26,292 nt of DNA, taken from IMG/VR virus record IMGVR_UViG_3300032282_002276, positions 1 through 26,292 of that record; one strand, written 5' to 3'. Every line of letters begins with the position of its first letter. The first letter of the stretch is position 1. This document shows, one piece after another, positions 4,754 through 25,583 of the stretch. Source of the stretch: a virus. A program made the translations under genes and the position numbers. The notes under the pieces were generated by a model. The model did not search any database. It was not told where the DNA came from and saw only the letters and a program-made list of their open reading frames with translations.

Positions 4754-6064
4754 ATGGCCAGACCAAATGTAACATTTAAACTGAACGATCTGTCAATCGT
4801 AGGACCAGCAACTGAATCCCAAAGCACAAAATGCCTAGGTGGTATGTTGGCATCAGATTGCCACATAGGAGCACTCGCAACCGTACAAGAAAGAGTTAAT
4901 GGGTTGATGTATATTCCAAATACAAACGACCTATACGCAAGACTTTCTAAGATGGTAACTGAATTTGCAGGTGGTGTCACCTATCTAGCAGGTGCTACCC
5001 TCTATTCACCAGGCGCATGTGCAGCAGGATATATCAACAACACATACACAGGCCTTGCATTCAATGGTGGATCAAAGATTCCATATCTGTTTGGCGATGC
5101 TGGCGTTTCCATGGCTGGATTTACTGGTGGCAGAACCGCATTCGCCGCAGAATTCTGGGCAATCAACAACTTCCTCGAATACGGTTCACCAGTTTATGTT
5201 GGTATTGGTGGTAGCGGTCTTTGCGGTGGTCTTTCAGGTTATCAAGCAATTTCTGACAATGCTATATTCGATGTCATGTTCCAGGGCATTTCTTCTGATG
5301 CTGGCGTTGCTAATGTTGTCAATGTCGTTGAAGGCAAGAAGGCAAATGAACTTGCAGTCATGGGTATCTTGAATCTTCCATCCGTTAGCACAGCACTCAC
5401 CACTGCTCCATCTGGAAATGGAACCACATTTGATGATTATCACTACACCATAGTTTATGGTGAGAAGGTTCATCTTGGTGCAAACGGTGCAGACCAAACC
5501 TTCATCACAACCATTCTTGCTCCAGATGTTGCTGGTTGCATGGCAAGAACCGACAGAGATTATTATCCTTGGTTCTCTCCAGCAGGCACAAAGAGAGGTA
5601 AGATTCTCAATGTTGCTAGACTTAATAGAAACCTCAGAGCAGCAGAACAAGATCTCCTCTATGATGCTGGAATTAATCCAGTAGTCACATTCCCAGGAGA
5701 AGGTACATTCCTCTTCGGTGATAAGACTACAACTCCAGCAACTTCTACTCTCTCTAGAGTAAATGTTGCTAGACTCTTCATCAATCTTAAGAAGACTCTT
5801 GGTGCAGTTGCACGCAGAACTCTCTTCGAAGTAAATAACGGAGCAACTAGATCTGCATTCAAGGCAACCGCTGAGAAGATTCTCCAAACTGTTCAAGCAC
5901 AAAGTGGTATTTCAGATTACAAGGTAATCTGCGATGAATCAAACAATCCATCATCTGTTGTTGAAGCAAATGAATTTTATGCTGAAGTTCTGATCAAACC
6001 ACTCACTTCGATCAACTTCATCACAATTACTCTAACTAATGTTGATCTTCAAACTGTGATTTAA
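4754..6064 (+). CDS. gp18: gp18-like contractile tail sheath protein (compact form)
   Basis: 436 aa, much shorter than T4 gp18 (659). Subunit of the contractile sheath around the gp19 tube. The C-terminal ~100 residues (NVARLFINLKKTLGAVARR, then FEVNNG, and the final YAEVLIKPLTSINFITITL) are the conserved sheath core that interlocks subunits. The N-terminal half is Gly/Ala/Ser-rich. The gene lies between the terminase and the tube gene, as in T4. The reduced length suggests that surface-exposed insertion domains of T4 gp18 are missing and the assembly/contraction core retained; this is inference. The start has a strong AAGGAG RBS. Confidence 0.87.
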   Translation: MARPNVTFKLNDLSIVGPATESQSTKCLGGMLASDCHIGALATVQERVNGLMYIPNTNDLYARLSKMVTEFAGGVTYLAGATLYSPGACAAGYINNTYTGLAFNGGSKIPYLFGDAGVSMAGFTGGRTAFAAEFWAINNFLEYGSPVYVGIGGSGLCGGLSGYQAISDNAIFDVMFQGISSDAGVANVVNVVEGKKANELAVMGILNLPSVSTALTTAPSGNGTTFDDYHYTIVYGEKVHLGANGADQTFITTILAPDVAGCMARTDRDYYPWFSPAGTKRGKILNVARLNRNLRAAEQDLLYDAGINPVVTFPGEGTFLFGDKTTTPATSTLSRVNVARLFINLKKTLGAVARRTLFEVNNGATRSAFKATAEKILQTVQAQSGISDYKVICDESNNPSSVVEANEFYAEVLIKPLTSINFITITLTNVDLQTVI

Positions 6065-13986: not shown

Positions 13987-15440
13987 TAAAGATAAAAAAC
14001 ATAGACTCTGTTCACATTGAAATAGATTGTGATAAATCAATCTCAAAGGAATTGAGTATGTTTTTTACATTTAAAGTTCCAAATTCAGAATACAATCCAG
14101 CGTTTCGCAAGAAGAAATGGGATGGAAAGATTCGTTTGTATAATCTATTAACTCAAAGAATATACAAAGGTCTTCTTCCATATGTTCTTTCATTTGCAAA
14201 AGATCGTGGATATAAAGTTGAATATGAATCATCATTGATGAGTGATTCAACCGAGGTGTCGTTTCCAAAGGTATTTTCCAATGGAAAACATATTGAACCT
14301 CATGATTATCAGAAAGAAGCAGTAACACATGCACTCACAAATAAAAGATGCATGTTGATATCTCCAACTGGTTCTGGTAAAAGTTTGATCATATATTTCA
14401 TTCTTCTTGAATTGCTCAAGAGAACAAAGAAAAAGATCTTGATCGTCGTGCCAACCACTGGACTTGTGACACAATTGAATTCAGATTTTCAAGACTATGC
14501 AAATACCAAGGAGATATCCAAAGGCATTCATTTGATATATGGTGGACAGGAAAAACAAACAAATGCAAGAGTGATCATCTCGACATGGCAGAGTCTACAT
14601 GATCAACCAGAAGAATTCTTTTCACAGTTTGATGCCATCATTGGAGATGAATCTCATTTATTCAAGGCAAAATCCCTTACAAAAATAATGAATAAATTGA
14701 AGACATGTGATTATAGAATTGGAACTACAGGAACTCTGGATGGCACACAAGTTCATAAATTAGTGCTTGAAGGATTGTTTGGAACCGTTCATCAGGTTAC
14801 ATCCACAAAAGAACTTATAGATAAAGAAGTGTTAGCTCAGTTGAATATAGAGTGTTTGATTCTTCGCTATCCTGGCAAAGATATACAGGAGATCAAGCGT
14901 GCAAAATATATTGACGAAATTGAGTGGTTGGTTCTCAACGATAAACGCAATAAATTTATTACAGATCTTGCAACTAGCATTCCTGGCAATGTGCTTGTTC
15001 TTTTCAATTTTGTCGACAAGCATGGAATTCCTCTCTATCAGAAGATTTCAAAAGCAAGTAAGAAACAGTCGTATCTCATCTGTGGTAAAACAGAAGTTGA
15101 AGAGCGAGAACAAATAAGAAAGATTGTTGATAAAAGCAATAATAGTGTATTGGTTGCTTCCTTTGGAACATGTAGCACTGGAATCAATATCAAGAATATA
15201 AATGCAATAATCTTTGCTTCTCCATCTAAATCGGTCATTCGTGTACTTCAATCCATTGGAAGAGGACTTAGAAAATCCGACACAAAGGATAAAGTAACCG
15301 TTTATGATATTGGAGATGATCTCAGTCATGGCAAATATCGCAATCATGCTCTCAGACATCTAGATGAACGAACTACCATATATACTAATGAGAGTTTCAA
15401 ATTTGACAAGATCAAGATAAACTTAGGAGAAACTAAATGA
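13983..15440 (+). CDS. uvsW: UvsW recombination helicase
   Basis: 485 aa, near T4 UvsW (about 500). SF2 helicase that unwinds branched intermediates and R-loops, shifting phage DNA synthesis from origin to recombination-dependent initiation. N-terminal DNA-binding domain (NPAFRKKKWDGKIRLY, about 38-53), then Walker A SPTGSGKS (127-134), DESH box (222-225), motif III TTGTLDG (248-254) and motif VI QSIGRGLRKSD (423-433). All helicase motifs are intact. It overlaps uvsY and the next gene by 4 bases each. Confidence 0.96.
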   Translation: MIKIKNIDSVHIEIDCDKSISKELSMFFTFKVPNSEYNPAFRKKKWDGKIRLYNLLTQRIYKGLLPYVLSFAKDRGYKVEYESSLMSDSTEVSFPKVFSNGKHIEPHDYQKEAVTHALTNKRCMLISPTGSGKSLIIYFILLELLKRTKKKILIVVPTTGLVTQLNSDFQDYANTKEISKGIHLIYGGQEKQTNARVIISTWQSLHDQPEEFFSQFDAIIGDESHLFKAKSLTKIMNKLKTCDYRIGTTGTLDGTQVHKLVLEGLFGTVHQVTSTKELIDKEVLAQLNIECLILRYPGKDIQEIKRAKYIDEIEWLVLNDKRNKFITDLATSIPGNVLVLFNFVDKHGIPLYQKISKASKKQSYLICGKTEVEEREQIRKIVDKSNNSVLVASFGTCSTGINIKNINAIIFASPSKSVIRVLQSIGRGLRKSDTKDKVTVYDIGDDLSHGKYRNHALRHLDERTTIYTNESFKFDKIKINLGETK

Positions 15441-16177
15441 ATTTAAAAATATTCAAACTTCGAAGCGGTGAAGAAGTAATTTGTCAAATTATTGAAGAAA
15501 CAAAGAATAAATTCAAAGTTTCCGATCCATTGGTTTTTCGCACATCCACAATGACTGATCATCATGGCACATATGATATGACTGTTCTTCGTGATTGGTT
15601 GACACATACTGAAAATAAAACAACATTCATTCCAAAGAATCATATTGTCGTGCAATGTGATCCAAAGGAAGATACCAAAAAATTATACTCTCTCCAGTTA
15701 GAAACAGAAAGAACAATGTCTGAAAAAGTCGTATCAATCGACAATTCAGCACAGATGGATAATCTTCCTGATGTAGATGCACCACCACAGGATCAAATAT
15801 TCCAGGATTTCCTGGACGCATTGCTCAATAATCCCGAAGCAATGAATGAACAGCAATATGATCCTATGGTTGACAACTACACTCCAAAATCCCCAAGACC
15901 AAGGAGAAGAAAATCATCAAGAAGAAATAATATGCCATCTCCAGAAATGAACCCAAATGAAATGGATCGTCACGGCATATATGTCAGTATGATGCTTCCA
16001 TCCGAGGCAATTATGAATCTAATAACTGCTGGTCTTCTAGATCCAAAGGATATCCTTCGTATGATCAAGGAAGTAAAGAGAAAGAATCGGTTTACTGGAG
16101 ATGAGAAGGATCGTAAGGATTACGGATCCAAGTTCAGTGACTGGAATCCCGATCCAAGCTCAGATGAATATAAGTAA
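15437..16177 (+). CDS. Unknown protein with Sm/Hfq-like N-terminal segment
   Basis: 246 aa. Residues 1-40 (FKLRSGEEVICQIIEETKNKFKVSDPLVF) follow the pattern of an Sm/LSm-type beta barrel: charged strand, SGEEV turn, then strand and DP-L. Similar proteins occur between uvsW and gp55 in other marine T4-likes. Residues about 110-150 are acidic and Pro/Gln-rich. Residues 153-170 contain a basic patch (SPRPRRRKSSRRNN). The end is charged. A possible role is binding RNA or a regulatory partner, but no function is demonstrated. It overlaps uvsW by 4 bases and its stop lies in a weak terminator stem. Confidence 0.6.
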   Translation: MNLKIFKLRSGEEVICQIIEETKNKFKVSDPLVFRTSTMTDHHGTYDMTVLRDWLTHTENKTTFIPKNHIVVQCDPKEDTKKLYSLQLETERTMSEKVVSIDNSAQMDNLPDVDAPPQDQIFQDFLDALLNNPEAMNEQQYDPMVDNYTPKSPRPRRRKSSRRNNMPSPEMNPNEMDRHGIYVSMMLPSEAIMNLITAGLLDPKDILRMIKEVKRKNRFTGDEKDRKDYGSKFSDWNPDPSSDEYK

Positions 16178-16320: not shown

Positions 16321-16890
16321 ATGAAAAACAACCCAGACGAAGAAGAACAGATAATCAAACAAGAAATCAAAAGCGCAAAGCATTACATAGATAATGAACG
16401 GTTTTGCAAATCGATGATTGAATGGAAGAAAACAGTGAAGGAATATGAGGAAACAGGAGAGGAAAAACGACCTCCCCTAACCGATTATATTGCTGAATGT
16501 TTTCTAAAGATTGCAGAACATCTGTCACATCGTCCTAATTTTATAAACTACCCCTTTAGGGAAGATATGGTTGGCGATGGAATAGAAAATTGCATATTAT
16601 ATGCTCATAACTTTGATCCAGATAAATCATCCAATCCGTTTTCATATTTTACACAAATAATTTACTATGCTTTTCTTAGAAGAATAGAAAAAGAAAAGAA
16701 ACAAGCATATGTTAAATATAAATGCTTGCAAATGAATGATTTTGATGGTAAAATTGTAGACTGGTTGAAAAGTCAACCAGATGTAACTTCATATTCTGAG
16801 TTTCTTTCTAAACATTTTTCATTAACTGAAGCAGATATTGAAAAAATGGAACCAGAAAAGAAAAAGAAAAAACGAAGGAAGAAAAAGTGA
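16321..16890 (+). CDS. gp55: gp55-like late sigma factor
   Basis: 189 aa (T4 gp55 is 185). Directs host RNA polymerase to late promoters of the TATAAATA type, with gp45 clamp as activator in T4. The sigma region 2-like core is clear: INYPFREDMVGDGIENCILY (about 79-98), NFDPDKSSNPFSYFTQIIYY (about 101-120), then AFLRRIEKEKKQAYVKYK. The C-terminus ends in a run of Lys and Arg (last 10 residues all K/R). I do not see an obvious hydrophobic clamp-binding end as known for T4 gp55. The GTG start of gp47 overlaps the stop. Confidence 0.93.
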   Translation: MKNNPDEEEQIIKQEIKSAKHYIDNERFCKSMIEWKKTVKEYEETGEEKRPPLTDYIAECFLKIAEHLSHRPNFINYPFREDMVGDGIENCILYAHNFDPDKSSNPFSYFTQIIYYAFLRRIEKEKKQAYVKYKCLQMNDFDGKIVDWLKSQPDVTSYSEFLSKHFSLTEADIEKMEPEKKKKKRRKKK

Positions 16891-17948
16891 AAATTGCTTT
16901 TATCAATGATACGCATTTTGGTGTAAGAAATGATTCTCCTTTTTTCTTACAACACATTTTAAATTATCTAGAAAATACATTCATACCATATCTTGTAGAT
17001 AATAAAATAGATACGGTTATCCATCTTGGTGATTTCTTTGATCGTAGAAAATATGTAAATTTCAATACTCTTTCATCTGTTCGTAAGCAATTCATAGAAC
17101 CTTTACAACAGCATAATATTACGATGTATGTAACACTGGGAAACCATGACACATACTATAGAAACACAAATGAAGTGAATTCAGTCAAGGAATTGCTTTC
17201 CAGATATAGCAATTTTGTATTGCTTGAAGAACCAACTGAAGTAAAATTTGATCATCTGTGCATATCAGTGATTCCCTGGATTACTCCAGATAATCTGGAT
17301 AGCACATTGAGATTCATCAAATCTTCTTCGTGTAGGGTTCTTTGTGGTCATTTGGAGATTGCTGGATTTCAGGTCATGAGTGGTGTAAAACACACTCACG
17401 GTCTTACTGCAAAAGAATTTGATAAATTTGAGATGGTTCTATCTGGTCACTTCCATATCAAGCAAAGTGAAGGTAATATATTTTATCTTGGAAGTCAATA
17501 TCAAATGAATTTTGGTGATGTCAATTCCAAGAAGGGATTCCATGTCCTTGACACATCAACCATGGAATTGGAATTCATTGAAAATGAAAATGATATATTT
17601 CACACATTCACATATGACGATTCAAATGATCAAGGCATTAAGAATATTGCAAACTTTGTCTCTAAATCAGACCTCAAGGGTGGATTTGTTAGAATATTCG
17701 TTAGAATGAAGAACAAGCAAAATGTATTTGATAAATTCCTAGATGCACTATGGGGAAAGCAAGTACAGGATATATCTATTGTTGAGGATGTATCATCTGT
17801 TACATCCAATACTGGTGTTGACTTTGACGAAGGTGAAGATACAATGAGTATCATAAATCGTGAAATTGATGCAATTCAACGAGATATTGATAAACTCAAA
17901 CTCAAGAATATTATCAAAGATCTATATATGGAAAGTTTAAAAATATGA
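16887..17948 (+). CDS. gp47: gp47-like recombination nuclease subunit (Mre11-type)
   Basis: 353 aa (T4 gp47 is 339). With gp46 it resects DNA ends for recombination-dependent replication. Phosphodiesterase motifs: NDTHFG (D8, H10), GDFFDRR (48-54), GNHD (85-88), GHLEIAG (154-160) and GHFH (187-190), so all metal ligands of the Mre11 family appear present. It starts at GTG overlapping the gp55 stop, with AAGGAAG upstream. The 3' end overlaps the SET-domain gene by 4 bases. Confidence 0.97.
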   Translation: MKIAFINDTHFGVRNDSPFFLQHILNYLENTFIPYLVDNKIDTVIHLGDFFDRRKYVNFNTLSSVRKQFIEPLQQHNITMYVTLGNHDTYYRNTNEVNSVKELLSRYSNFVLLEEPTEVKFDHLCISVIPWITPDNLDSTLRFIKSSSCRVLCGHLEIAGFQVMSGVKHTHGLTAKEFDKFEMVLSGHFHIKQSEGNIFYLGSQYQMNFGDVNSKKGFHVLDTSTMELEFIENENDIFHTFTYDDSNDQGIKNIANFVSKSDLKGGFVRIFVRMKNKQNVFDKFLDALWGKQVQDISIVEDVSSVTSNTGVDFDEGEDTMSIINREIDAIQRDIDKLKLKNIIKDLYMESLKI

Positions 17949-18676
17949 ACAATAATGAACCTGTTGAAATTGAAAATGATGAATCAATTAAATTTACAAT
18001 GGATAGATTTTCAGAAGATAATCAAAAGTTAAAAATTGATGAACGAGGACTTCCTGTAAGAACTTCTCATTCAAATTATGTTGGAATTCGCTTGACCAAC
18101 GATGATGGAAAGACAGTATATTCGCATAGCACATTCTATACACCACCAAAGTGTTATGTAAGCAAATCAAATATTCATGAACATGGAGTGTTTGCTGCAA
18201 AGGATTTTGCACCTGGCGAATGCATTGAGGAAATGAAAACCATAATTCTTGACACGACTACAGAATCGTGCAAGGATTGGGTTTTATATCGTTATGCGTG
18301 GGTATGGGATTGTGATTGCAGCATATGCGCCGCAAATGGAAAGACCATGTACATGCCAACTGGAAATGGATTGATCTACAATCATTCGGATAATCCAAAT
18401 GCATATGTTCAACTTGAAAAACCATTCAAACGAGTAAAGATGATTGCTTTGCGTCCGATTAAAAAGGATGAAGAAATCACTTGGTACTATGGAAAGGAAA
18501 TGGCAAAGAGATTCAAGGATATTCCAAAACTACAACCACGATCTGATATTCCAGAAGGTATGCCAGCAACTATTCTACAAACAACAACAAGCACTCCATG
18601 CACTACATGCGGAAACAAGGCAATTGATGAATTGCAATTTCGCTCAATGATCGTGCCAGAAAGTGTCATTGAATGA
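17945..18676 (+). CDS. SET-domain protein (putative lysine methyltransferase)
   Basis: 243 aa. SET signatures in order: SNIHEHGVFAAKDFAPGE (75-92), the SAM-binding start; GLIYNHSDNPNA (142-153), equivalent to the family NHSxxPN motif; and ALRPIKKDEEITWYYG (168-183), equivalent to GEELTxDY. Cysteines C123, C125, C128 (CDCSIC) and C219, C222 (CTTC) could bind zinc as in post-SET regions. Known SET proteins methylate lysines using S-adenosylmethionine. It is inserted between gp47 and gp46, overlapping both by 4 bases, so it is translated with the nuclease subunits. The target is unknown; candidates are a phage replication protein or a host protein. Confidence 0.8.
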   Translation: MNNNEPVEIENDESIKFTMDRFSEDNQKLKIDERGLPVRTSHSNYVGIRLTNDDGKTVYSHSTFYTPPKCYVSKSNIHEHGVFAAKDFAPGECIEEMKTIILDTTTESCKDWVLYRYAWVWDCDCSICAANGKTMYMPTGNGLIYNHSDNPNAYVQLEKPFKRVKMIALRPIKKDEEITWYYGKEMAKRFKDIPKLQPRSDIPEGMPATILQTTTSTPCTTCGNKAIDELQFRSMIVPESVIE

Positions 18677-20403
18677 TCAAATTTGAAAAAGTAAGATTCA
18701 AGAATTTTGGTTCATTCGGAAATACCTTTAATGAAATTATTCTTGATGCTAACAATACAACTCTTATTTGTGGTAATAACGGAAGTGGAAAATCCTTTGC
18801 GTTTCTTGATTCCATAACATTTGCATTGTTTGGTAAGCCATTTAGGAAAATCAATATACCCCAATTGGCAAATTCAATCAATTCAAAGAATTGTATTGTT
18901 GAAGTTGAATTCAGCAAAGGTGCTGATAAATTTACAATCAAGCGTGGAATCAATCCTCGTTTATTTGAAATTTATAAAAACAATGAATTGATCAATCAAG
19001 ATGCAAAGAGTCTTGATTATCAGGAACTATTAGAGACACAAATTCTAAAGATGAATTACAAGACATTCACCCAGGTTGTGATTCTTGGTAGTTCATCTTT
19101 TGTTCCATTCATGCAATTGAGTGCAGCGGACAGAAGAAGTGTTATTGAAAATATTCTTGACATTGATATCTTTAGCACAATGAATGTCGTCTTGAAGGGT
19201 AAGATTCTTTCGCTCAAGGAAGGAATCAAGGAACTCAACACCAAGATTGAAATTGAAAAGAACAAGATCAATGTTCAGAAGAGTTATATTGCCACTCTTG
19301 AAAAGAAGAACAATGAAGATGATGATGGAAAGAATCAACGAATTTCTGAATTGGAAAAAAAGATTCATACAATTCGTTATGATATGATTTCCCAGAATCT
19401 ATCAGTCGAAGGGTTGCAAGCAGATATGAATTTTGTAAAGAAAACCTTAAAGGAAAAGAATACCAAGATTCAAGATGCCCGTGCGCATATCACTACGCTG
19501 AAAAATTCAAAAGAACAGAAGCAGAAGGAAATAAACTTCTTCAAGGAAAATTGTACATGCCCCACATGCACTCAACCTATTGAGGATAAACTCAAGAAGG
19601 AAAAAGTGCTGATGAACAATTACGATATTTCAAATCTAGAAGATGATATGGAAAGAGCAAACAAACATATCACAGATATTCAAGAAGATGTGAATCGGTT
19701 TGACAATAGCATTCAAGAGATAACAAATAGTATGCAAGAAGTATATTCTTTAAACAAAGAAATAGAAGCATACCAAAAGGAAATTGAACGCATTCGCAAT
19801 ACGATGCAAAATTCAGTTATCAAGGATAATATCATAGAGGAAAAGGAAAAGTTGAAACTTCTTGAGGGTGCTTTTTCCACCTTGGAATTGCAAAAGGAAA
19901 AACAATCAGAAGATCTAATGTACCATGACCTTACAAATGAATTGTTGCGTGATGGTGGTGTAAAGACAAAAATCATAAAGTATTATTTGCCATTCATGAA
20001 TAAATTTATCAATAAGTTCTTGGCATCAATGGATTTTTATGTTCAATTTCACATGGATGAAGAATTCAATGAACAAATCAAATCCAGACACCGCGATGAA
20101 TTTTCCTACATGAATTTCAGCGAAGGTGAGAAAATGCGTATAGATCTGGCACTGCTTCTAGCATGGAGGGAGATTGCAAGAATGAAAAATAGTGTAAATT
20201 GCAATCTTCTGATATTGGATGAGGTTTTTGATTCTTCGCTGGACGGTGTAGGTATGGATGAATTGATGAAATTATTGAGAATTGTTTCTGACAAGGCAAA
20301 TGTATATGTGATTAGTCATAAGGCAGATCAATTAGTTGATAAATTTTCTAATATAATTTCATTTGAAAAGAAGAATAATTTTAGTAGAATGATAAATACC
20401 TGA
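18673..20403 (+). CDS. gp46: gp46-like recombination ATPase subunit (Rad50/SbcC-type)
   Basis: 576 aa (T4 gp46 is 560). SMC-like ATPase partner of gp47. Walker A GNNGSGKS (34-41), coiled coil about 180-290, zinc-hook CPTC (C296, C299), second coiled coil about 305-415, ABC signature FSEGE (482-486), Walker B LLILDEVFD (512-520) and VISHK (546-550). Everything needed for ATP binding and hook dimerisation is present. It overlaps the SET gene by 4 bases, so 55-47-SET-46 form one coupled unit. Confidence 0.97.
   Translation: MIKFEKVRFKNFGSFGNTFNEIILDANNTTLICGNNGSGKSFAFLDSITFALFGKPFRKINIPQLANSINSKNCIVEVEFSKGADKFTIKRGINPRLFEIYKNNELINQDAKSLDYQELLETQILKMNYKTFTQVVILGSSSFVPFMQLSAADRRSVIENILDIDIFSTMNVVLKGKILSLKEGIKELNTKIEIEKNKINVQKSYIATLEKKNNEDDDGKNQRISELEKKIHTIRYDMISQNLSVEGLQADMNFVKKTLKEKNTKIQDARAHITTLKNSKEQKQKEINFFKENCTCPTCTQPIEDKLKKEKVLMNNYDISNLEDDMERANKHITDIQEDVNRFDNSIQEITNSMQEVYSLNKEIEAYQKEIERIRNTMQNSVIKDNIIEEKEKLKLLEGAFSTLELQKEKQSEDLMYHDLTNELLRDGGVKTKIIKYYLPFMNKFINKFLASMDFYVQFHMDEEFNEQIKSRHRDEFSYMNFSEGEKMRIDLALLLAWREIARMKNSVNCNLLILDEVFDSSLDGVGMDELMKLLRIVSDKANVYVISHKADQLVDKFSNIISFEKKNNFSRMINT
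20391..20398 (+). promoter_or_regulatory. Candidate late promoter inside the end of gp46
   Basis: GATAAATA followed by CC, 7 of 8 matches to the late octamer, lies in the last codons of gp46. A start 6-7 bases on falls at about 20404-20405, the ATG of the next gene, which has no Shine-Dalgarno. The arrangement repeats the one at 12935-12948. Confidence 0.6.
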
Positions 20404-23405: not shown

Positions 23406-24251
23406 ATGGAAAAAGTGCAAGCAATCGGTGCTCCGTTTGTTATAGAGCATTCATCATGTTCTGATTTAAAGACAAGAAAATTTCAATGGACATTGGAAGA
23501 TTGCCCCATCAAGGTATTCATTGATGGTGCTATTATGTCTGGTCTTGAGTATCAAAAGAAAGAAGGCGAGACAAAGGTTGCATGGGTTTGTGAATCCAGG
23601 ACAATCTTTCATGCCATGAGTGTTCCTCGCGATACTTGGGTAAACAATCTTGAAAAAATTTGTGAGCATTATGATGTTGTATACACATCTGAACGAGAGT
23701 TGCTTTCTGTGCATCCTAAGATGCAATTTGCTTATGCTGGTAGCAATCTTCCTTGGATCAAACCACAATCTGAGGATATGTCCATTGAGAAAACCAAGTT
23801 CTGTTCCATAATTTCTTCTCCTAAAAATTATGCATATGGTCATAAGATGCGACATGCTATTGCCACTACATTCAAGGATCACATTGATGTCTTTGGTGGT
23901 GTAAACGATTCTCCAAGAGTTTCTGGTATTGATAAGTGGGACAAGACTCCAGGACTCAAGGATTACATGTTCTCTTTTGTAGTGGAGAACGATAGATATC
24001 CAACATATTATACCGAAAAACTAACCGATTGTTTCATGGTTGGAACCATTCCAATCTATTGGGGAGCTCCCGACATTGGTGATATCTTTGACATCAATGG
24101 ATTTGTCATGCTTACTCCTGATTTTGATTTGAGAACATTGACAAAGGAATTGTTTGAATCTAAGATTGAATCTGCACTTAAGAATTATCAAATCTGCATT
24201 GACTTGGAAATGGCAGATGATTATCTCTATTCTAAAATAAAGCAACTATAA
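23406..24251 (+). CDS. GT10-type (fucosyltransferase-like) glycosyltransferase
   Basis: 281 aa. The C-terminal half carries the family pattern of alpha-1,3-fucosyltransferases: SFVVENDRYP (190-199), YYTEKLTDCFMVGTIPIYWG (201-220) and APDIGDIFD just after. The N-terminal half (VAWVCESRTI, VVYTSERELL) fits the acceptor-side domain. Such enzymes transfer a sugar, usually fucose from GDP-fucose, to glycans. No signal peptide or membrane anchor is seen, so a cytoplasmic enzyme acting on phage proteins or host glycan precursors is likely. RBS AAAGG lies before the ATG; the next gene begins one base after its stop. Confidence 0.85.
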   Translation: MEKVQAIGAPFVIEHSSCSDLKTRKFQWTLEDCPIKVFIDGAIMSGLEYQKKEGETKVAWVCESRTIFHAMSVPRDTWVNNLEKICEHYDVVYTSERELLSVHPKMQFAYAGSNLPWIKPQSEDMSIEKTKFCSIISSPKNYAYGHKMRHAIATTFKDHIDVFGGVNDSPRVSGIDKWDKTPGLKDYMFSFVVENDRYPTYYTEKLTDCFMVGTIPIYWGAPDIGDIFDINGFVMLTPDFDLRTLTKELFESKIESALKNYQICIDLEMADDYLYSKIKQL

Positions 24252-24252
24252 T

Positions 24253-24918
24253 ATGAAAACTGAAATCGTATCCTTTTATTGCGATATAGGCAATAAGACA
24301 TATTACAGCGATCATGCTCGTCGTTTGCGTATAAATTGCAATGAGCATAATATTCCACATGATATACGGGAATTGCCATCTCGCGGTGAATATAGGTTGA
24401 ATTGTCTGGCAAAACCAAAGTTCATTCTTGATGTTCTAATGGAAAAGAAGAAACCATTTGTTTGGTTGGATGTGGATTCATTGGTTCATGGCGAATTGGA
24501 TGTGTTTGATGGATTACATGATAAATGTGATATTGCATTTGCATATCAGGGTATGCCACCCCATATAATTCCAACCACTCCAAAAGCATCTCCAATATAT
24601 CTGACATACAGTGAAATAGTGATTGAATTTCTTAATTTTTGGATTCATGAATGCGAAGAAAATATAAAAACCACTACCGAGAAAAAGGTATTTGATCATG
24701 AAATATTGATGTGGAAAGTTCTTCCAATTTATATTCCAAAAATGAAAGTTGGTGCTCTTGGAATAAATTATGCCATATGGCCTGGAACACATATTCCAGA
24801 AGGAATGAGGCCAATGATCACTATGGGAATCGCAGACAATGAATCCAAGGAACAATCCCTCCGCGATATGGGATTGCCACAGGAAATCATAGATTTTAAT
24901 CTAGTGAGGAATCGATGA
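24253..24918 (+). CDS. Putative nucleotide-sugar glycosyltransferase with DxD motif
   Basis: 221 aa. Residues 69-78 (FVWLDVDSLV) contain the DxD metal/nucleotide-sugar motif (D73, D75) in the setting of a GT-A fold. It is preceded by a Rossmann-like start (VSFYCDIGNKTYYSDHARRL) and CLAKPKFILDVL. VFDHEILMW (about 144-152) matches the conserved D-E region seen in such enzymes. Sugar and acceptor are unknown. It is tightly spaced after the GT10 gene and overlaps the next gene by 4 bases. Confidence 0.7.
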   Translation: MKTEIVSFYCDIGNKTYYSDHARRLRINCNEHNIPHDIRELPSRGEYRLNCLAKPKFILDVLMEKKKPFVWLDVDSLVHGELDVFDGLHDKCDIAFAYQGMPPHIIPTTPKASPIYLTYSEIVIEFLNFWIHECEENIKTTTEKKVFDHEILMWKVLPIYIPKMKVGALGINYAIWPGTHIPEGMRPMITMGIADNESKEQSLRDMGLPQEIIDFNLVRNR

Positions 24919-25583
24919 AATTTTTAACACAATTGAACAGTGGTTGTGTAGACATATGCAAGAACATGCTCAAGTCAGCAGAAAATGTTGGAATCGATAT
25001 GAACGATTTTATCATTGCTTGTTTGGATGCAAATGCATATGAGCAAATGAAGCAATATCCAAATACATTTCTCTATAAAGATCAGCAATATACGGGATAT
25101 CAGGATTGGTCATTCGATAAAGGCAGCAACTTCAGACAGATCGTGAAATTGAAATGGAAATTAATTTCCGACACACATAACAAACACAAAAGACTTTGCT
25201 GGGTTGATACTGATATAGTGTTCAAGCAGAATCCAAAGGATTTCTTTGATGCAAATTCAAAATTTGTGTTGTTTCAAACTGATGTTCCTGGTAGTCTGAT
25301 TTGTTCTGGTCTTATGGTCTTCAACGATACAACGGAATGCTGCAACATGATTGAGGAATGTGGTCTGAACGAGACAGAGGATGATCAGATTCTAATCAAT
25401 CAAATCGCCCTGACAAAGTATTCAACCGCTGTGGCATTACTGCCAATGGAATATTTTCCAAATGGACACTTGTATTATACTATAGGAATGAAAGATAAAG
25501 CACTTATGGTTCACAACAACCATATGGTTGGAATTGAAACCAAGATCAATAAATTCAAACAAGAAGGAATGTGGTACTTATGA
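24915..25583 (+). CDS. Putative GT77-like glycosyltransferase with DxD motif
   Basis: 222 aa. LCWVDTDIVF (94-103) holds the DxD motif (D98, D100). It is followed by the typical downstream segments SLICSGLMVFN, a DDQILIN acceptor-side motif and a final HNNHMVGIETK, close to the H-N-H--G---K ending of nucleotide-diphospho-sugar transferases of this kind. The substrate is unknown. It resembles its upstream neighbour in length and layout, so the pair may be a divergent tandem duplication or may act in sequence. It overlaps both neighbours by 4 bases. Confidence 0.75.
   Translation: MKFLTQLNSGCVDICKNMLKSAENVGIDMNDFIIACLDANAYEQMKQYPNTFLYKDQQYTGYQDWSFDKGSNFRQIVKLKWKLISDTHNKHKRLCWVDTDIVFKQNPKDFFDANSKFVLFQTDVPGSLICSGLMVFNDTTECCNMIEECGLNETEDDQILINQIALTKYSTAVALLPMEYFPNGHLYYTIGMKDKALMVHNNHMVGIETKINKFKQEGMWYL

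Follow-up and report, generated by a model that had tools for sequence, protein, structure and literature searches.

We describe a SET-domain protein encoded between the genes for the two subunits of the recombination nuclease, gp47 and gp46, in the window (the whole 26,292-nucleotide stretch of viral DNA analysed here, from a T4-like phage). The open reading frame at 17945-18676 is a genuine SET-domain gene and is under purifying selection. Sequence, structural modelling and analogy together make it fairly probable that its product is an active protein lysine methyltransferase, vSET-like and SAM-dependent, that is made with the recombination nuclease and directed at a DNA-associated target. 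A motif-complete, long-lived SET family within a core recombination operon seems to be undescribed.

SET methyltransferases are best known as a class for histone modification in eukaryotes. The first-pass annotation of this DNA regarded a phage copy as unusual for a class best known from eukaryotes and their viruses. Yet the class reaches further: short vSET-like proteins, among them the bacterial relatives of this protein, also occur in Bacteroidota and Gammaproteobacteria, as well as in dozens of phage contigs.

A SET gene within the recombination operon

The gene order around the SET gene is UvsY, UvsW, a DUF protein called 'methylamine utilization', gp55, gp47, SET, gp46, an unnamed ORF, the gp45 clamp and the gp44 clamp loader. 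The central genes and junctions are:

16321-16890, + strand: gp55 late sigma factor (phrog_234, E = 1.5e-57); its Lys-rich C-terminus, KKKKKRRKKK, is a substrate candidate only
16887-17948, + strand: gp47, SbcD-like nuclease subunit (phrog_100, E = 1.5e-101)
17945-17948, + strand: ATGA overlap of the gp47 stop and the SET start, read from the sequence
17945-18676, + strand: SET-domain protein gene, 243 aa (Pfam SET, AF2 core, PDB fold matches)
18673-18676, + strand: ATGA overlap of the SET stop and the gp46 start, read from the sequence
18673-20403, + strand: gp46, SbcC-like ATPase subunit (phrog_77, E = 2e-159)

The ATGA overlaps at both junctions bear out the earlier proposal that the SET gene is translationally coupled to gp47 and gp46. 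Such coupling in a gp55-gp47-SET-gp46 operon would make the SET protein appear together with the recombination nuclease. The late-promoter motif ATAAATA was uninformative (10 matches versus 9.4 expected). After the replication cluster, at 23406-25583, the window has three consecutive genes: one for a Glyco_transf_10 protein resembling fucosyltransferases, one unassigned and one for a nucleotide-diphospho-sugar transferase.

The GC content of the SET gene (0.369) is like that of gp47 (0.324), gp46 (0.327) and the window (0.366), in line with the earlier view that the gene is no evident recent arrival. Compared with the nearest relative, L001, dN/dS is 0.085 for SET, 0.073 for gp47 and 0.102 for gp46, and within the protein the SET core is the least changed part (pN 0.060 versus 0.155 and 0.170 for the termini). 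Together with homologues in the same slot and catalytic residues conserved in 42 of 42 sequences, a dN/dS of about 0.085 places the reading frame well beyond chance.

A predicted SET fold with a complete active site

The protein matches the Pfam SET profile PF00856 over residues 80-183 (E = 9.1e-14, 52.2 bits against a curated cutoff of 22.4 bits), spanning profile positions 2-105 of 105. Its closest sequence in the PDB is PBCV-1 vSET, with E = 3.6e-10 for the single sequence and 8.5e-30 for the family profile. The ORF itself has no PHROG family at E = 0.001; 25 of the 42 SET family members match phrog_28741, to which no function is assigned.

The protein can be divided as follows:

17945-18151, + strand: N-terminal extension, residues 1-69, with conserved G-x-P-V-R-T-S-H-S-x-Y-x-G (alignment; low model confidence)
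18152-18499, + strand: SET core, residues 70-185 (Pfam, AF2 model, Foldseek, Z scores)
18311-18328, + strand: CDCSIC cysteine triad in the SET insert, residues 123-128, a candidate metal site common to Bacteroidota relatives
18377-18388, + strand: Y-N-H-S motif, residues 145-148; N146/H147 are the equivalents of vSET N69/H70 (N and H in 42/42)
18485-18493, + strand: Y-Y-G motif, residues 181-183; Y182 is the equivalent of the vSET catalytic Y105 (42/42; vSET alignment)
18599-18610, + strand: C-terminal CTTC, residues 219-222, GCGCG in other members (alignment, motif pattern search)
18638-18658, + strand: C-terminal family-specific F-R-S-M-[IV]-V-P motif (motif pattern search)

The three SET motif regions had been quoted correctly in the first-pass annotation. 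They read K74-S-x5-G81-V-F-A...G91-E92, G140-N-G-x-x-Y-N146-H147-S-x2-P-N and I178-x-W-Y-Y182-G183. By profile alignment, vSET residues Y50, N69-H70 and Y105 correspond to Y117, N146-H147 and Y182. N146, H147 and Y182 are invariant among the 42 aligned sequences, and Y117 is kept in 38 of them.

Structure prediction, which had been suggested as a check, returned a confident SET fold for the core. With the 42-sequence alignment the AF2 model reached a pLDDT of 71 (35 with 6 sequences), with about 80-98 over residues 70-185 and both termini poorly predicted. PBCV-1 vSET, P. falciparum PfSET7 and S. pombe Set7 took the top Foldseek ranks (E from 7e-11 to 1e-8). Z was 15.3 to PfSET7 (108 aligned, 2.0 A), 13.9 to Set7 and 13.7 to vSET (103 aligned, 2.2 A); as these values are close, the placement in the vSET subgroup is made by sequence. 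With a profile score above the cutoff, a predicted SET fold, the N-H motif and the catalytic Tyr, the protein belongs to the SET superfamily, and the earlier reading of it as a putative methyltransferase holds, with the predicted SAM and catalytic motifs present. The nearest solved structure and the Y50/N69/H70/Y105 equivalents place it nearest the minimal vSET-like proteins.

A family kept at one site in related phages

Scans of IMG/VR yielded an 81% identical SET copy in the same slot, followed by 71 loci. The long SET proteins (243-308 aa) form one group, found besides the window in 17 IMG/VR contigs of related T4-like phages, all uncultured; each contig is counted once, several are near-copies, and independent lineages are nearer nine sequence types. 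The same-site check proposed earlier came out in favour, an intact copy lying there in these relatives: SET is 3' of gp47 in 17/17 contigs, and gp46 then follows except in one contig that ends first. Long-family members share the N-terminal motif GxPVRTSHSxYxG (RKNHSYF in L031 and L033) and a C-terminus with CxC or CxxC plus F-R-S-x-[IV]-V-P. The F-R-S-M-[IV]-V-P motif occurs in none of the other ORFs of the retrieved loci by motif pattern search. In the remaining IMG/VR loci the SET proteins have about 130 aa, and many of these loci are on contigs above 100 kb.

A sister lineage (L010-L012) has no SET gene, and there gp47 and gp46 are joined directly by ATGA. The end of gp47 in L012 (GGAAAGTTTAAAAATATGA) is identical to that of the window up to this ATGA, which means that the cassette was gained or lost exactly. 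A tree of gp47 joins L010-L012 to the window and the 81% relative, with nine further SET-carrying rows as their sister group. L090, with a degenerate SET copy, branches earlier, near the SET-less L018, on long branches that make its placement unsure. Because the tail motifs are shared, we favour one old gain of SET followed by losses over repeated gains. A recent transfer from Bacteroidota was rejected: in the SET tree, whose resolution is poor, the phage family is not nested in bacteria. A resemblance of the SET C-terminus to T4-GC142 (LLIPPDNVIL versus MIVPENIL) is faint and too short for use.

Some of the neighbouring gp46 genes are themselves irregular. In L023:5692-6520 (also in L019 and L024) the Walker A motif of gp46 (GSNGSGK/C...VSHN/S) is split by an inserted segment whose ends look intein-like (CLRGSTEVEI ... 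EFYANGIVSHN) and whose middle is not open in one frame. In L013:5065-6748 the gp46 match shifts frame near 5294-5382, perhaps by sequencing error.

A candidate metal site

The protein carries CxCxxC in the insert and CTTC near the C-terminus, where model confidence is low. The window, L001, L031, L033, L036 and L016 all have the triad; it is replaced as a unit in one branch (L034, L039, L042). This joint loss suggests that the three cysteines cooperate, perhaps as a metal site. The first-pass annotation had put CDCSIC and CTTC together as a possible zinc site. The cysteines are real and the triad is lost jointly, but that branch keeps its C-terminal pair, which leaves a single zinc site joining the two clusters unsupported. 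Nor is this a SUV39/Dim-5-type SET protein (NHxC plus a post-SET CxCx4C zinc site): its motif is NHS-D-N-P-N, and the triad lies before NHS, inside the SET insert.

Possible targets and alternative roles

The case for an active enzyme is argued from the complete active site together with selection. It would bind SAM and, we infer, use lysine as the acceptor; its substrate would be a DNA-associated host or phage protein, whose methylation may assist the phage in replicating its genome, recombining or shutting off the host. A DNA-bound target is preferred by analogy with vSET and with Go1-SET acting on MC1-alpha. Binding of the target or a partner probably falls to the phage-specific N- and C-terminal parts. 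More speculatively, SET could provide a dedicated phage methylation step on a DNA-bound phage or host protein, tied to replication, recombination or late transcription; we consider this possible, though improbable. If true, it would be a prokaryotic counterpart of chlorella virus vSET acting on host chromatin.

The earlier suggestion that the nuclease itself is methylated found no support in lysine tests of gp46 and gp47, or in those of gp55 and UvsW. Lysine co-loss with SET absence gave nothing usable in gp47, gp46, gp55, UvsY or UvsW, the comparison resting on a single SET-less lineage. None of the lysines invariant in SET-carrying gp46 or gp55 is lost where SET is missing, and the sole gp47 case lies near the C-terminus and is probably trivial. 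For the protein encoded from 15437, co-loss (3/5 versus 5/37, Fisher p = 0.04) is not significant, this being one of six proteins and again a single SET-less lineage. An RKS motif (H3K9/K27-like) in this upstream protein (15437-16177) was dismissed as the substrate because it is absent from the SET-carrying L013-L044.

These results bear on an active methyltransferase that would modify phage proteins of late transcription or recombination, such as the gp55 Lys-rich tail or gp46/gp47. SET is coupled to the nuclease, gp55 with its KKKKKRRKKK end lies just upstream, and K-rich gp55 tails occur in all SET-carrying relatives. Moreover, in a 595-kb huge phage (L008:3395-4489) SET directly follows an ORF with weak likeness to the gp55 sigma factor (phrog_234, E = 2e-4) and sits beside a UvsW-like helicase gene. 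However, K-rich gp55 tails are also found without SET (L010-L012, Mosig), which removes them as a SET-tracking substrate, and with the lysine results above we regard a target of this kind as unlikely. Somewhat more weight, though still well short of an even chance, goes to SET as accessory cargo, an active methyltransferase on an ordinary host protein that is useful in some hosts only. The gp47-gp46 slot is indeed open to exchange: it holds a 2OG-Fe(II) oxygenase, another possible protein-modifying enzyme, in Pelagibacter phage Mosig (L003:6047-6682), an 82-91 aa ORF (T4-GC142) in cyanophages and a pyrimidine-dimer glycosylase-like ORF in L017, and is empty in Melnitz and L010-L012; short SETs, too, occur in several unrelated contexts. 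Against this, the long family keeps its slot through deep divergence (34% SET and about 57% gp47 identity), and selection in the window lineage is about as strong as on gp47, unlike transient cargo.

SET could also bind or scaffold the gp46/gp47 complex, using its fold with no need for catalysis. The distant same-slot relative L090:2867-3562 fits such a role: it has lost NHS and the catalytic Tyr, yet it keeps the slot, both tail motifs (GCGCG, FKSMV) and a SET fold that Pfam still recognises (E = 9e-7). Motif loss in relatives, named earlier as grounds for refutation, is thus seen in this one distant copy, against catalytic residues in 42/42 aligned relatives. Its persistence indicates that catalysis is not always needed and makes a binding role of the extensions plausible. 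Nonetheless, the catalytic residues are complete in the window and in all 17 other intact same-slot contigs, and a purely structural protein appears quite unlikely. Least probable of all, and very unlikely, is a conventional SET enzyme whose acceptor is something else, for instance histidine or a free amino acid; SETD3 demonstrates that histidine methylation is within reach of SET enzymes (PMC6684798), but vSET, the closest characterised relative, is a lysine enzyme. An active lysine methyltransferase is still the reading we prefer. It has to accommodate the degenerate L090 copy, the sister phages that do without the gene, a lysine screen that yielded no SET-tracking substrate, and a long family that lacks the Y-W found after the catalytic Tyr in vSET and short phage SETs; its nucleoid-type target is proposed by analogy.

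A complete vSET-like enzyme, long held in the T4-like core recombination operon, makes a direct test possible. It raises the question of whether phages rewrite bacterial nucleoid proteins, or their own replication machinery, by methylation.

Comparison with known SET proteins

The presence of SET genes in phages is not in itself novel: one is annotated in Stenotrophomonas phage vB_SmaM_Ps15, and UniProt already lists SET proteins of uncultured Caudovirales phages. In the open-access literature we found no study of the function of phage SET proteins or of phage-encoded lysine methylation; one isolate paper mentions SET. By tblastn, gp47 was found in 2,758 of 50,697 phage records and the SET protein (E up to 0.05) in only 4, all unannotated huge-phage records, a count that covers relatives of this protein only and that the annotated Ps15 protein escapes. 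Ps15 ORF62 ('SET domain protein', PMC9025141) is likewise a SET gene in a T4-like phage, a cultured one. It differs in having 101 aa, NSS rather than NHS, and a place in a small-ORF array outside gp47-gp46; tblastn detected no similarity between it and our SET query.

The short phage SETs of about 130 aa (for example A0A6J5L8Y2 of an uncultured Caudovirales phage, and those on contigs L045-L098) share the core and the catalytic residues and include the top BFVD match (E = 6e-12), but they lack the extensions and lie in other contexts, where an SNF2-like helicase often comes next. This helicase is directly downstream of SET in L054:4992-7141, and similarly in L050, L060-L063, L073, L075 and L092-L094; its recurrence in many large phage contigs may mark a second SET context. 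Another locus, L051:2653-5393, packs into 2.7 kb a pair of SET genes, a gene resembling 2OG-Fe(II) oxygenases and two ORFs that resemble glycosyltransferases. The Bacteroidota proteins L099, L100 and L102 have the CxCxxC and HG/NG insert and 34-39% core identity; they differ in having no FRSMVVP tail, and a tree of weak resolution groups them separately from the phage proteins.

Among characterised enzymes, archaeal Go1-SET of Methanosarcina has been shown in vitro to methylate MC1-alpha, a DNA-binding protein (PMC6776556). By description it is a prokaryotic SET enzyme with a DNA-bound protein target, but it is cellular and archaeal. PBCV-1 vSET (A612L) trimethylates H3K27, is packaged and has been implicated in inhibition of host transcription (PMC7019647). 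It shares the minimal SET core and matching catalytic residues with the phage protein and is the best sequence match, though third-ranked by Z. However, vSET has 119 aa and comes from a virus of a eukaryote, whereas the phage protein has 243 aa, N- and C-terminal extensions and a Cys-bearing SET insert, and bacteria have no histone H3.
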